Assembly: GCA_030550515.1 (NCBI GenBank)
Contig: JAUQPE010000011.1
Coordinates: 194,915 to 258,914, forward strand
DNA length: 64,000 nt
Direction: 5' to 3'
DNA from: Thermotogota bacterium
Lineage (GTDB): Bacteria > Thermotogota > Thermotogae > Thermotogales > Thermotogaceae
Position numbers and translations under genes: made by a program. This document shows positions 23,201 to 28,215 of this stretch, in pieces; positions within the stretch are counted from its first letter, which is position 1, and every line of letters begins with the position of its first letter. Under the pieces are notes generated by a model that saw only the letters and a program-made list of their open reading frames with translations, ran no database searches and was not told the origin of the DNA.

Positions 23201-23737
23201 ATGGGTTCGAGGCCCGCGTTCACCATCTTGGAAGCCTTGATCACCATGGGGGTGCTCCTTGCATCTCTACTCCTCGTGCTGGGACTGACGGTCAGGTTCA
23301 TGATCGTCTCGGAATATTCACTTGCGACGGTGAACCTCTCGGATGAGCTTTTGAAGGCTTCGATGAGGATAAGGGAGGAACTTTTAAAGATCGGACCGAG
23401 GATGGACACGGTGCAGCTGTTTCGAAACGGAATCGAGGTGAAAGGCGTTGAAGGTGACGAAGTGAGGTTCGAGGTCAGCATTCCGTTCGGTGGCGAGGGG
23501 AGTTTTTACTCCAAAACCGTGAGGTACTCCATAAAATTCGATGGAACGGAGAAGAAAGTTGTGATCATGGAGCAGAAAGGAGACAAACCAAGCGTCGTGA
23601 GGGTTTTGGCTGAAAACATCGAAGATTGCCGGTTTCGAATGTTGGAACTGGGTACCATATCGTTCTCGATCCAAAAACGTGAAAAACGAATGGCGAGAAC
23701 CATGAGTATGACTGTTTCCCTCTTCAACACGAAGTGA
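23201..23737 (+). CDS. Prepilin-like protein (PulJ/PilW type)
   Basis: The 178-residue protein begins with a class III prepilin signal: a short basic leader (MGSRPA), then FTILEALITMGVLLASLLLV, with the essential Glu at position 5 after the predicted cleavage site. The residue before the cut is Ala where Gly is usual. The rest is a beta-rich globular domain. It is probably a minor pseudopilin of a type IV pilus or type II secretion-like apparatus. ATG at 23201 follows GGAGG by 8 bases. It is first in a three-gene cluster with two more exported proteins. Confidence 0.75.
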   Translation: MGSRPAFTILEALITMGVLLASLLLVLGLTVRFMIVSEYSLATVNLSDELLKASMRIREELLKIGPRMDTVQLFRNGIEVKGVEGDEVRFEVSIPFGGEGSFYSKTVRYSIKFDGTEKKVVIMEQKGDKPSVVRVLAENIEDCRFRMLELGTISFSIQKREKRMARTMSMTVSLFNTK

Positions 23738-23747
23738 GGTGGTCGAA

Positions 23748-25589
23748 GTGAGAAAGGGTTCCATCCTGTTGACTGTGATGGTGATCCTGCTGGTGGTTTC
23801 TGCCATCGGTACAGGTGTTTTCGTGGCCTTTCAAGGTTACAGAAACAGGGCGGAATACAACTGGCAATTGCTCGAGGCTTCCTATAGAGCTTCCAACGGC
23901 CTCAACTTGGGTGTCGCGTTCTTGAAGAAGTACTTCTCCGGCCTTGTGGGAATAAGGATCCCAAGCTGGGCGAGTGGAAGCGTCAACTGGTTCTCGGACT
24001 TCGAAAAGAGAGTTTTCGCACAAGCCGATGGTACAGCTTGGAAGAACACCTTCGAGTTAGTTGACAAAACCAGGTACTACGACTTGGTTTTCGAAAGGGG
24101 CTTCTCAGAAGAGCTCAAAAGAAATGGGTTGGACGGTGTAAAGGTCGTGGCCTTTCCTTTTCAAAGCGCGCACTACTTGCTGCTCGTCTCAAGAGCTCAA
24201 GTTGGAAGGGCGGTTGTCTACAAGTACGCCGTGTTGTCAACGAACTTTCTCAACAAGTACGCTTACTTCACCGAGAAAGAGACACAAACGGATGGGAGAA
24301 TCATATACTTCATCACACAGGACACGATAGATGGTCCTTTCAGATCGAACGACGTCATAAGGGTGAGGGGCAGTCCTAACTTCAAAGGTGTCGTTGAGTT
24401 CGCGGGGATAAGGGTGGAAATGGGTGCTGGTCCCATCTACGGGAACCCACCTCCCAGGTACTTGACCGCTAAAGATATCGAGGAGTACAACATCACCAGG
24501 ATAAAGGAGAGTTACTTCTCCCAACTCGAAAGGGTGGTGATGAAAGTGTCGGACGCGGTGAAGAGCTCCGTCCCCACCGGTTTGAGGCTGCCGAGGACTT
24601 TTCAGGAAGAAAGAAAAGAAGGTGGGAAGACAGTTCTTTATCGAAAGATGTTGGATTACATCGTATCTCTCAAAGAACCGTTAGGTTCAAATTCCGAAGA
24701 AGCCGAGATGGTGAGGGTGGAGTACACGGTGAAAGGGGTCTACAAGAGCGAGGACGGCGTGAGATGGGAGGATGTGACAGGCAGTGTGAAGCCTGGGGAG
24801 AAGAAGGGAGGAGAACTTTTCACGCTCAAATTTAACAGAAAAAAGAACAGTTACCACCTGGTGGTTCGTGGTAACGAGGCCCGGGAAATTTTGGGCCTCG
24901 ACAGAAACGAATACGAGTTGAACTTCAACGGGGTAATCTTTGCGGAAGGAGACGTTTACCTCAAGAGCATGGGTGGAGCTGGGAAACCCGCTTTGGTGGA
25001 TGGTAGGATGACGATCGTGGCAGGCTACAAGACTTTGTACGACTCGAAAGATAAAACCTTCAAGGAGAACATCGCCCATCTTGGCAGCGTTTTCATCGAG
25101 GATCCCATCGTATACGCGGACTACGTGGAAGTTTTGGAAAAGATTGCCGCGGAGCAGGGAAAAAAAGGATCTTTCGAGAAAATCGTCAGTGTGACGACCA
25201 TCGGAGAAGAGTACGCGGAACTTCTGAAAAAACACGAATCGGACGACTTCCTGAACATCGTGGCCGCTCAGAACGTGGTGGTCAACCAAAAGAGGGAAAA
25301 CATGAAGATATTTGCGAGCCTTTACGCCTTCGATGGGAGTTTCTACGTGAAAGACTACAACTTAGGTAGTCCCGTTGGAGAACTCCTGATCTTTGGTTCT
25401 CTCATGCAGTACAGGAGGGGAGCGGTGGGTACCTTTTACTGGGATCCGAGAAGTGGAAAAACCGTCGTTCGGACGGGTTACTACAAGAACTACATCTACG
25501 ATTGGAGGATACTCAAAGGGTTGGCTGCGCCTGGAACGCCGGCGATCGGCGATGACGTGTTGGTTTTGAGCGTCAGAGAGGTGTATTGA
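23748..25589 (+). CDS. Large PilX-like exported protein (DUF4900-like)
   Basis: The protein of about 613 residues starts with a hydrophobic segment (MRKGSILLTVMVILLVVSAIGTG) like that of PilX-type minor pilins, then has a long beta-rich exported domain. The C-terminal third includes FNGVIFAEGDVYLKSMGGAG, GRMTIVAGYKTLY and EDPIVYADYVEV. From memory this repeated pattern is that of DUF4900 proteins encoded with minor pilins. GTG at 23748 is 5 bases after GAGGTGG. It overlaps the following gene region without a gap. The function of the large domain is unknown; an adhesin or assembly-tip role would fit. Confidence 0.65.
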   Translation: MRKGSILLTVMVILLVVSAIGTGVFVAFQGYRNRAEYNWQLLEASYRASNGLNLGVAFLKKYFSGLVGIRIPSWASGSVNWFSDFEKRVFAQADGTAWKNTFELVDKTRYYDLVFERGFSEELKRNGLDGVKVVAFPFQSAHYLLLVSRAQVGRAVVYKYAVLSTNFLNKYAYFTEKETQTDGRIIYFITQDTIDGPFRSNDVIRVRGSPNFKGVVEFAGIRVEMGAGPIYGNPPPRYLTAKDIEEYNITRIKESYFSQLERVVMKVSDAVKSSVPTGLRLPRTFQEERKEGGKTVLYRKMLDYIVSLKEPLGSNSEEAEMVRVEYTVKGVYKSEDGVRWEDVTGSVKPGEKKGGELFTLKFNRKKNSYHLVVRGNEAREILGLDRNEYELNFNGVIFAEGDVYLKSMGGAGKPALVDGRMTIVAGYKTLYDSKDKTFKENIAHLGSVFIEDPIVYADYVEVLEKIAAEQGKKGSFEKIVSVTTIGEEYAELLKKHESDDFLNIVAAQNVVVNQKRENMKIFASLYAFDGSFYVKDYNLGSPVGELLIFGSLMQYRRGAVGTFYWDPRSGKTVVRTGYYKNYIYDWRILKGLAAPGTPAIGDDVLVLSVREVY

Positions 25590-25591
25590 AG

Positions 25592-25978
25592 ATGAGGGGC
25601 GGTAGCACCCTTGTTGAAGCCTTGATCGGTTTGGTTTTGGTCGCGATCGTGATCACCATTTTCTTCACCCTGATCACGTTCGTCTTCACGGCCACAAAAC
25701 TTACGGAAGATACCACAAGGCTCTATTCCTTTTTGACGTTCGTTCAGGATTATCTCTCAAGGTTCAGGGTGGGAAACGTGTTGGACACCACATTTTTGAG
25801 CTCGAAGATCAACGAACTATTCTGGGGTTCCACTAACCCGAAGAAATACCCACTGATCGAGAGTCTTTCCCAAGAAGAGGTGGTGCTGGGAGACGGCGTG
25901 ATCTACAGGAGAGTCATCGCCAAGATAAGGGTGAGTGAAAACAAAATCGTGGAGAAGGTCTTTTTGATCGGTTTCTAA
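25592..25978 (+). CDS. Small prepilin-like protein
   Basis: The 128-residue protein has a prepilin signal MRGGSTLVEALIGLVLVAIV: a leader ending in Gly, then STLVEAL with Glu5, then a hydrophobic helix. The remainder is a short soluble domain. It completes a cluster of three secreted pilin-like proteins. ATG at 25592 follows GAGGTG by 8 bases. Its TAA stop codon is also the first three bases of the sigma-28 promoter at 25976-26002. Confidence 0.75.
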   Translation: MRGGSTLVEALIGLVLVAIVITIFFTLITFVFTATKLTEDTTRLYSFLTFVQDYLSRFRVGNVLDTTFLSSKINELFWGSTNPKKYPLIESLSQEEVVLGDGVIYRRVIAKIRVSENKIVEKVFLIGF

Positions 25979-26002
25979 AGTCTTCGACATCCCAGCCGAT
26001 CT
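25976..26002 (+). promoter_or_regulatory. Sigma-28 promoter of flaG-fliD
   Basis: TAAAGTCT at 25976-25983, an 11-base spacer and GCCGATCT at 25995-26002 match the consensus TAAAGTTT-N11-GCCGATAA at 13 of 16 positions. It lies 40 bases before flaG. The upstream gene's stop codon forms the start of the -35 box. Confidence 0.85.
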
Positions 26003-26041
26003 TTATACATGAGAGAGGACCTTCGGTCTGGAGGGATCCGT

Positions 26042-26386
26042 ATGCGGGTGGAACCCACGGACGGGAAAGGATTCGACCCTCTCCGCGGAGAAAGAATCAT
26101 CATGGAGATGCACGTTCAGAAGAAGCAGGAGTTGGATCCCGTCTTCGCTTCCAAGGACGATGTGAAAAAGGCCGTTGACGAGTTTGCCGAGAAGCTGGAA
26201 AAGCTCAGAAGGATCTTCAGGGGGGAAGCGGTGTTCAAGTACGACGAGGAACTCGACATGGTGATAGTGAAGATAAAGGACCCAGAGACCGGCGAGATCA
26301 TCCGTCAGATACCCCCAGAAGTGGTGGTGAAGATCGCAAAGAGCGTTAGCGAATTCCTCGGTATCCTTCTGGACGAAAGGGTGTGA
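26042..26386 (+). CDS. flaG: Flagellar protein FlaG
   Basis: The 114-residue protein is FlaG, a small protein linked to filament length control and usually encoded beside fliD. The C-terminal signature is clear: VFKYDEELDMVIVKIKDPETGEIIRQIPPEVVVKIAKSVSEFLG. ATG at 26042 is six bases after GGAGG, and the ATG at 26009 lies too near the promoter and lacks such a site. The stop codon overlaps the fliD start. Confidence 0.93.
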   Translation: MRVEPTDGKGFDPLRGERIIMEMHVQKKQELDPVFASKDDVKKAVDEFAEKLEKLRRIFRGEAVFKYDEELDMVIVKIKDPETGEIIRQIPPEVVVKIAKSVSEFLGILLDERV

Positions 26387-28215
26387 TGAGCTTGGATCTG
26401 AGTAAGATTTCCAGTCTCGTAAACATGAGGCACTATTCCAAACTTGGAAAGTTTCAAGTGGGTGGTATCAGCAGCGGCCTCGACACTCAGTCCATCGTTT
26501 CGGCGATACTGGAAGTGGAAAGTGCTCCCCTTCAGAAACTCGTTGAAAGGTACAAAGAATACGATCTCCTTCAAAAGGCCTTCGAAAAGGTGAAAGCATC
26601 CTTAAGAGAGTTCCGGGACTTCGTGTACACGCTCAAATTCCAAAGCAACATCCTGAAGAAGAACGCGGTTTCTTCGGACGAGAAAGCGCTTTCCGCGGAA
26701 GCCACCCCCGTGGCGGTGTCCGGAGTCTACCGAGTGAGTGTGATGAGACTTGCCACACCCACCACCTTGGTTGGGCAAAGCGCTTTGGTGGCTCCACCAG
26801 AACCATCGAAGAAGTATCGGGAACTGAATTACATGTACGTTCCGAGGGAAGGCGTGGTGAGGGTTTACAACAACGAGCAGGGAACTTACAAAGACGTGCA
26901 GATTTCTCTGGAGGATACTATCTCTGAGATCGTCGACAAAATCTCTTCGACCTTTTCGGAACTTGGAATGGATGCGTCGGTGAGTTACGACGCGGCCACC
27001 GCTAGATTCTCCATCTTGTCGAACAAAAACTTCTCCGTCGTCGACGTTTCCGGTAACTTCACCAAAGTTTTCCAACTCGACCAAGCGACGGTTTCGTACG
27101 AAAACGGGGTCTATTCCCTGAGCAGCGGAGTCCCCATCACCGTTTTGTCGCTTGACAAGACGCTCTCACAGCTTTCCGGTTATTCTTCGACGAGCTTCAC
27201 GGGAGGAACCGTGAAAATCAACGGAGTGGAGATAGTGGTGAACGAGAACGACACTTTAAGAGCTGTCTTGAACAGGATAAACAACAGCAAGGCTGGCGTT
27301 TTCGCCTTGTACGATCAGGCAACAGGTAGGATCATGCTCGTCTCAAAGAACACAGGTCCCACCGCGATCACCCTGGAGGACGTCTCGTCGACGGGTTTGT
27401 TCGCCTTGCTCGGTTTGGAGAACCACACCCTACAGCTCGGCCAGAAGGCACACCTGAGGGTCAGTCTCGATGGGGTGAACTGGTTGGACTTGTTCGGTGA
27501 CACCAACGAAGTCAGCTACAACGGAGTCCTTTTCAAGCTCAACCGGACAACCACCGAGCAGGTCACGGTGAAGGTCGATTGGGACAGAGAGGCCATCTTG
27601 AACAAGGTGAAGGAATTCGTTGAAAAGTGGAATTCCTTGATGAACTTCATAAACGAGAAACTCAACGAGGAGAAGGTGAAGGACAAAAAGGAAGAAGAGA
27701 TGAGCGAAGAGGAGAAGTTAAAAGGCGTTCTGAAAGGGAACGATCTTTTAGAGCAGATCCGGAGGGATTTGAGAAAGTTCATCACGCAGAGGATAGAAGG
27801 TGAGATCAAGTATCTGTCAGACCTTGGGATCACCACGGGAAGCGCGGGGATGGGATACCAAAACATGATGAAGGGACTCCTCACGTTCGACGAGGAAAAG
27901 TTCAGAAGAGTTTTGAACGAGAACCCCGAGAGAGTTTGGAACTTTTTTGGAGGAATACACGGCTTTGCGACGAGACTGGACAGCTATCTGTGGGAACTCG
28001 TGAAGTTCAACGGAAGGATAGATCAATTCGTCGGCATCAGCGGAAGGCTCGGACGCGAAAAGAGAGTTTTGGCGAAGCAGATCTCCGATTGGATTGAACG
28101 CCTCTCGAGGAGGGAAAAGGAGCTTTGGAGGAAGTTCTCAGCCCTCGAGGACGCGATCTCCAGATTTCAAGCTCAAGGCATGTGGATCTCTCAAGCCCTC
28201 CAGAGAAAACAATGA
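26386..28215 (+). CDS. fliD: Flagellar filament cap protein FliD
   Basis: FliD caps the filament tip and guides flagellin insertion. The protein of about 609 residues has the N-terminal FliD domain (FQVGGISSGLDTQSIVSAILEVESAPLQKLVERYKEY), a hook-like IN repeat region (ITVLSLDKTLSQLSGYSST; FTGGTVKINGVEIVVNENDTLRAVLNRINNS) and the C-terminal coiled region ending SRFQAQGMWISQALQ. The length is normal. The start ATG at 26386 overlaps the flaG stop by one base, which implies translational coupling. Confidence 0.95.
   Translation: MSLDLSKISSLVNMRHYSKLGKFQVGGISSGLDTQSIVSAILEVESAPLQKLVERYKEYDLLQKAFEKVKASLREFRDFVYTLKFQSNILKKNAVSSDEKALSAEATPVAVSGVYRVSVMRLATPTTLVGQSALVAPPEPSKKYRELNYMYVPREGVVRVYNNEQGTYKDVQISLEDTISEIVDKISSTFSELGMDASVSYDAATARFSILSNKNFSVVDVSGNFTKVFQLDQATVSYENGVYSLSSGVPITVLSLDKTLSQLSGYSSTSFTGGTVKINGVEIVVNENDTLRAVLNRINNSKAGVFALYDQATGRIMLVSKNTGPTAITLEDVSSTGLFALLGLENHTLQLGQKAHLRVSLDGVNWLDLFGDTNEVSYNGVLFKLNRTTTEQVTVKVDWDREAILNKVKEFVEKWNSLMNFINEKLNEEKVKDKKEEEMSEEEKLKGVLKGNDLLEQIRRDLRKFITQRIEGEIKYLSDLGITTGSAGMGYQNMMKGLLTFDEEKFRRVLNENPERVWNFFGGIHGFATRLDSYLWELVKFNGRIDQFVGISGRLGREKRVLAKQISDWIERLSRREKELWRKFSALEDAISRFQAQGMWISQALQRKQ

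Follow-up and report, generated by a model that had tools for sequence, protein, structure and literature searches.

A cluster of three genes at positions 23,201–25,978 of the window, a 64,000-nucleotide stretch of contig JAUQPE010000011.1 from a Thermotogota bacterium (assembly GCA_030550515.1), probably encodes a three-subunit tip (priming) complex of a type IV pilus that resembles the ComZ complex. This estimate covers the ComZ-like tip complex and excludes the role of DNA, which is weighed separately below. The three prepilin-type genes of the cluster (hereafter the triad) are co-directional and follow one another in the order pil1-big-pil3. For the large protein, Big, the model predicts a pilin carrying a voluminous β-solenoid, a fold whose closest structural match is Thermus ComZ. 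The triad is present or absent as a unit among relatives and appears to be lost or exchanged as one. A sequence-only reading had described a three-gene pseudopilin cluster at this place, and all three genes were indeed recovered among the open reading frames (ORFs) and found to be conserved as a family. The features of the triad are as follows:

23201..23737, + strand: pil1, predicted 178-residue minor pilin of the GspJ/XcpW/ComGF type (signal, AlphaFold2 model, fold matches)
23748..25589, + strand: big, putative 613-residue ComZ-like tip pilin with DUF4900 (profile, alignment, model, fold match to ComZ, 6QVI)
24231..24398, + strand: DUF4900 (PF16241) stretch in Big, residues 162–217 of 613 (profile; coordinates by arithmetic)
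25592..25978, + strand: pil3, 128-residue small prepilin, GspI/PilV-type by size and place (ORF, prepilin signal, N_methyl)

Prepilin Signals and Pilus Machinery

The signal of Pil1 (...SRPA/FTILEAL) has Ala at −1 in the usual place of Gly, as also do the members of its family at loci L062–L063, and Glu at +5. That of Pil3 (MRGG/STLVEAL) likewise has Glu at +5, and its start adjoins the stop codon of big. The N-terminus of Big (MRKG/SILLT) leads into a hydrophobic helix and has Thr, not Glu, at +5. The two prepilin signals, one of them with Ala, flanking a large protein with a hydrophobic N-terminus are therefore borne out by the sequences. The start of big was set at 23748 by the family-conserved MRKG, a similar pattern being found in most relatives, while the mechanical ORF begins at 23739 and yields 616 residues; for pil3 the mechanical ORF starts at a TTG at 25586 and the adopted start is 25592. 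Chance prepilin motifs were ruled out as an explanation, since 35 of 61 genomes, counting its own, have a match to Big. The ORF list showed no fourth prepilin gene (a GspH/FimU partner) in the window cluster.

The apparatus expected to serve such tip components is encoded elsewhere on the window genome (G000; 1.61 Mb, 29 contigs), as had been proposed earlier, and a place at the pilus tip is probable. One prepilin peptidase was found (C9:73412-73714), together with a PilB-type ATPase about 60 kb upstream of the triad (C27:156516-157673), a PilT-type ATPase on C6 (the two types being assigned by size and score within PF00437), ComEC on C16, and secretins on C14 (1284–1292 residues) and on C9, the contig of the peptidase (383 residues). 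Since the peptidase is present, the refutation named earlier for the pilin assignment, a lack of profile similarity to pilins and of a prepilin peptidase in the genome, fails. In two genomes of family f9 (G050 and G060), which also have no triad, no strong PilB-type match was seen (the best E-values were 5.8e-65 and 7.8e-58, compared with values near 1e-130 in other genomes).

Profiles and Predicted Folds

In a Pfam search with the single protein, Big matched DUF4900 with an E-value of 9.8e-6 and 26.3 bits, under the cut-off of 29.4; in the genome search the score was 28.9, rising above the cut-off when frame neighbours were counted. The same family was matched by 26 of 30 Big homologues at E ≤ 0.1. 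PF07963 was not among the families listed for these 30 homologues, and the Pfam families PilX, PilW and PulJ found no match in the triad proteins at E ≤ 10. The earlier label "PilX/DUF4900-like" thus holds for the PilX-like architecture and for DUF4900, with the reservation on the single-protein score, and fails for the PilX family itself. Pil3 matched N_methyl at 0.0017, below the cut-off, and 17 of the 28 members of its family did so at E ≤ 0.1. Pil1 had no match in Pfam and only weak ones in NCBIfam, to ComGF/ComGE/GspJ-type and similar families, all below their cut-offs.

The AlphaFold2 model of Big, built on a 30-row alignment, has a mean predicted local distance difference test score (pLDDT) of 90.5 and a predicted template modelling score of 0.87. 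It consists of a helix (residues 2–62), strands at 132–167, a β-rich middle and a last strand at 599–612 that closes the pilin fold; the β-solenoid lies ahead of this strand, at about 170–590. When the model was compared by Foldseek with 350,542 PDB chains, the only matches at E ≤ 0.001 were the three ComZ chains of 6QVI (2e-7 to 8e-7), and the next best had an E-value of 0.22. ComZ had already been the lead candidate, on the grounds of gene layout, ahead of the fold search. VIA-align gave Z 17.1 for ComZ (242 aligned residues, 3.7 Å, 16% identity, span 170–600), followed by ice-binding solenoids (Z 11.4–13.2) and the C-terminal domain of a tapirin (Z 7.3). The split pilin part matched S. sanguinis PilA (Z 7.8, model residues 33–613) and XcpX of a type II secretion pseudopilus (Z 6.6, residues 1–612). 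Big thus appears, from its model, to be a pilin with a large β-solenoid inserted before the last strand, which is the architecture of ComZ; the insertion point was deduced from the strands of the model and the residues covered by each alignment, and not by inspecting a superposition. Because the global Foldseek TM-scores against ComZ are low (0.21–0.28), the likeness is not shown to extend to how the two domains are placed relative to each other.

The model of Pil1 (pLDDT 89.8) is predicted to have the GspJ/XcpW fold. Its best Foldseek matches were XcpW-type pseudopilins (E-values 0.001–0.008) and the Thermus pilin TTHA1219 (0.014), none reaching E ≤ 0.001, and VIA-align placed EpsJ, XcpW and GspJ at Z 8.7–10.3 and TTHA1219 at 9.9, after which the scores dropped to 4.5.

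Conservation of the Triad

A 30-row profile of Big found matches in 63 of 103 Thermotogota genomes at E ≤ 0.001; 41 of these lay below 1e-40, and the rest were weaker and partly other large pilins. PF16241 itself was matched in 31 of the 103; of the 14 control genomes, those of Thermotoga maritima and Deinobacterium chartae also gave a match. By an automatic rule, 29 of 33 fetched loci have, next to big, at least two small ORFs whose products are hydrophobic near the N-terminus. In two of the four exceptions (L032 and L043) an over-extended start hid the hydrophobic stretch, and pil1 is nonetheless seen in both; of the remaining two, L036 runs into a contig end and L055 has a single small ORF. 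The order pil1-big-pil3 is kept in the family of the window genome and in f2 genomes, while both small genes precede big in many f3 genomes and follow it in L049, L056 and L060. The pil1-like proteins of several f3 genomes (L046:3893-4423, L050:3590-4096, L057:6049-6543) have no Gly/Glu signal and keep the hydrophobic helix and the gene place.

Some further loci deserve mention. Big of G030 (L042:4256-5946) is split into two open frames of 435 and 119 residues, by breakage of the copy or by a sequencing error. The DUF4900 triad of L071 has behind it, at L071:4439-8819, a second cluster of pilin genes that includes one for an FG-GAP propeller protein; this contig is labelled Bacteroidota, its triad resembles those of Fervidobacterium contigs, and it is probably mis-binned. 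Distant matches also occur in actinobacterial contigs (among L083–L103), where neighbourhoods were listed for L084, L086 and L087 and the ORF calls, in DNA of high GC content, were unusable in two of the three.

Apparent Loss or Exchange of the Triad as a Unit

Within one sister genus big is carried by six genomes and is missing from a seventh, G009. The left flanks of the G009 and G010 loci are 90.1% identical over 3.9 kb and the right flanks 89.9% over 2.2 kb; between the flanks the 2.85 kb of G009 show no blastn match to the 2.82 kb of G010, which itself aligns without a break to the locus of G007 (93.5%). The divergence begins just upstream of the first gene and ends at a sigma-28 site. 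In place of the triad, G009 encodes proteins of 220 residues, of about 99 residues (small and prepilin-like), of 436 residues (a large pilin with DUF7305, E-value 1.7e-19) and of 170 residues (a prepilin).

Empty sites were found as well: 2.67 kb of G026, including the triad, correspond to 117 nt in G028, and 2.86 kb of G019 correspond to 149 nt in both G017 and G021. G018 is also without the triad, with a single flank aligned. These sites were judged by pairwise comparison of loci and may reflect losses or gains. Other prepilin sets exist besides. G028 carries sets with large proteins of 454 residues (with DUF7305) and 654 residues, and further triads surround proteins of 654–656 and 858 residues in G014, G016, G018 and G003; Pfam gave nothing, or an E-value of 0.12, for the large proteins of types C and D. 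The triad is present or absent as a unit and appears to be lost or exchanged whole among relatives.

Pseudomonas is known to exchange minor-pilin sets that are linked to pilin alleles. Tentatively, the pilus tip of Thermotogota might be viewed as a replaceable cartridge, in which whole sets of about three prepilin genes, each centred on a large pilin with an external domain of its own, would be gained, lost or swapped as units while the motor is kept. Such cartridges would comprise the DUF4900/ComZ-like kind, the DUF7305 kind and two further unnamed kinds. In the one genus where exchange was seen, it would be bounded by a conserved upstream region on one side and by the flaG sigma-28 box on the other, and the target of the tip (DNA, surface or phage receptor) could thereby change in one step.

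Two observations at the G009 locus stand apart. The 220-residue protein (L111:4453-5115) matches, in residues 10–88, the start of the 579-residue FG-GAP propeller protein of L071 and, in residues 89–217, a 150-residue pilin-like protein of the second tip cluster there; judged by sequence, it looks like a fusion remnant. A set of three genes, for a regulator-like protein, a secreted-looking protein of 368–372 residues and a short secretin, lies directly behind fliD in G009 (L111:9647-12499); the window genome has it on the contig that carries its prepilin peptidase (L113:1466-4772).

Proposed Function and Alternatives

We propose that the prepilin peptidase would mature the prepilins of the triad, which could then assemble first, ahead of the major pilin, as a cap like that of GspI-J-K. 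The solenoid of Big would be shown outside the cell via the secretin and bind an external ligand, and PilT would draw back the ligand-bound tip. As to the ligand itself, we lean, at somewhat less than an even chance, to DNA taken up in natural transformation, with a surface or glycan as the next candidate. Natural competence has been reported for Thermotoga strains RQ7 and RQ2, and the published list of competence genes has pilB, pilQ, pilC, pilD, pilT, pilE, comEA and comEC, with no minor pilin or tip receptor among them (PMC5637354). ComZ binds PilA2 and DNA and is needed for competence (PMC6561018).

Several observations weigh against the proposal or against its DNA part. The net charge after residue 35 ranges from −49 to +14 among 30 aligned tip proteins (+5 for Big of the window, −10 to −18 for four sister-genus proteins), a spread that does not suggest one shared mode of DNA binding; the ComZ study saw no positive patch either (PMC6561018). 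Among PDB chains, the 30-row sequence profile of Big failed to pick up ComZ at E ≤ 10, returning two matches at E-values of 0.15 or worse (the single sequence returned none), and a DUF4900 search of the control genome of Thermus composti gave no match. The window cluster has no major pilin and does not show the order pilA1-pilA2-pilA3-comZ-pilA4; PilA-like ORFs do lie within a few kb of the triad in relatives L038, L041 and L056. As ComEC is nearly universal (98 of 103 genomes), its co-occurrence with the triad is uninformative. Finally, G009, G028, G017 and G021, which have no triad, keep the peptidase, PilB, a secretin and ComEC, so the triad is not essential for keeping the pilus machine.

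The strongest alternative, a fair possibility though less likely than not, is a surface adhesin, in which the solenoid would bind polysaccharide, mineral, a neighbouring cell or the toga and the pili would pull the cell to food or a surface. The secondary match of the β-solenoid to a tapirin points this way, as do the acidic tip proteins of several genera and the finding that a sister species has a DUF7305 protein in exchange, which suits a variable ligand. In S. sanguinis, PilB is a modular tip pilin that acts as an adhesin (PMC8179133). On the other hand, ComZ is a far better match than tapirin (Z 17.1 vs 7.3), the ice-binding solenoids also outscore tapirin, so that its score may reflect mere shared solenoid shape, and no lectin or carbohydrate-binding family was found in Big by Pfam. 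The specific carbohydrate- or toga-binding role suggested earlier for the large protein is accordingly not supported, and an adhesin of that kind is the less probable reading.

That the triad supplies the minor pseudopilins (GspI/J/K) of a type II secretion pseudopilus, which exports enzymes and is no retractile pilus, we regard as unlikely. The matches of Pil1 to GspJ, XcpW and EpsJ and of Big to XcpX, as well as the short secretin on the peptidase contig, would fit; however, the solenoid matches a competence pilin and not the helical insert of GspK, G000 has a PilT-type second ATPase, and the cluster has no GspH partner (type II secretion genes were not searched individually). Least likely of all is a pure assembly complex without a ligand of its own, whose solenoid merely caps the filament: the composition is GspI-J-K-like, and in other species pilus assembly is primed by the core minor pilins (PMC12024867), but a solenoid of ~400 residues goes far beyond priming needs and a sister genome swaps the set, at the same locus, for one with an unlike large domain.

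Flanking Flagellar Genes

The triad abuts a flagellar transcription unit:

25976..26002, + strand: sigma-28-like promoter of flaG-fliD (consensus match; first triplet is the pil3 stop codon)
26009..26386, + strand: flaG, neighbour outside the pilin unit (PF03646, E-value 1.1e-21)
26383..28215, + strand: fliD, neighbour (named earlier and by place; homologues by blast)

The site TAAAGTCT-N11-GCCGATCT at 25976–26002 agrees with 13 of 16 positions of the sigma-28 consensus; three spacings were tried, and two sites of equal score exist on both strands of the window. The TAA of pil3 falls inside it, as the sequence-only reading had noted. In all six sister-genus genomes inspected (L031–L035 and G009) the stop before flaG overlaps a sigma-28-like site, those of L031–L035 matching 11 to 13 of 16 positions. 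While the triad is conserved in Thermotogota, its conservation beside flaG-fliD, which the earlier reading had marked for checking, is confined, among the fetched loci, to the window genome and one sister genus. Dependence on the flagellar genes was ruled out, as the triad stays together beside quite different neighbours in other families.

Comparison with Known Systems

Within the literature searched, two things appear to be new, namely that DUF4900 in Thermotogota can be read as ComZ-like and that a whole set is cleanly exchanged; nothing on DUF4900 was found in this search, which did not cover most subscription journals. The family thereby gains a testable role, and the triad supplies a candidate for the pilus-tip receptor absent from the published Thermotoga competence list. 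If the reading is true, the ComZ architecture would be placed in a second, distant phylum of thermophiles, and close relatives, some with an empty site and one with an exchanged set, offer a natural experiment on the purpose of a pilus tip.

Modular tip pilins as such are already known, and in the S. sanguinis proteins PilB and PilC, as is predicted for Big, a pilin module bears a functional one, with a probable place at the tip of the filament (PMC8179133). In Big, as in ComZ, the sheet itself takes up the inserted module. The three-protein set and the GspJ/XcpW fold predicted for Pil1 recall the GspI-GspJ-GspK (XcpV-W-X) tip, in which the place of GspK, also large and without Glu at +5, would be taken by Big; the insert of Big is a solenoid, in contrast to the helical domain of GspK, and the triad cluster has no GspH. 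Tapirins are cellulose-binding proteins with pilus-linked genes. The C-terminal domain of Caldicellulosiruptor tapirin (6N2B) shares with Big a β-helix and a thermophilic host, yet its fold match is much weaker (Z 7.3) and no pilin part is aligned.

The closest likeness is to ComZ with PilA1–PilA3 of Thermus thermophilus (6QVI). In ComZ the pilin domain is GspK-like, a solenoid separates its last two strands, and the protein is too bulky for the shaft (PMC6561018); the predicted pilin fold of Big, with a solenoid before the last strand, is alike. Both systems share a residue other than Glu at +5, neighbouring minor pilins of the GspJ and (for the triad, putative) GspI types, a thermophilic host and type IV pilus machinery. 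They differ in that the triad has no detectable sequence similarity to the Thermus set, three genes rather than five and no major pilin in the cluster; the tip charge of the Big family varies by genus, and DNA binding by Big is putative.
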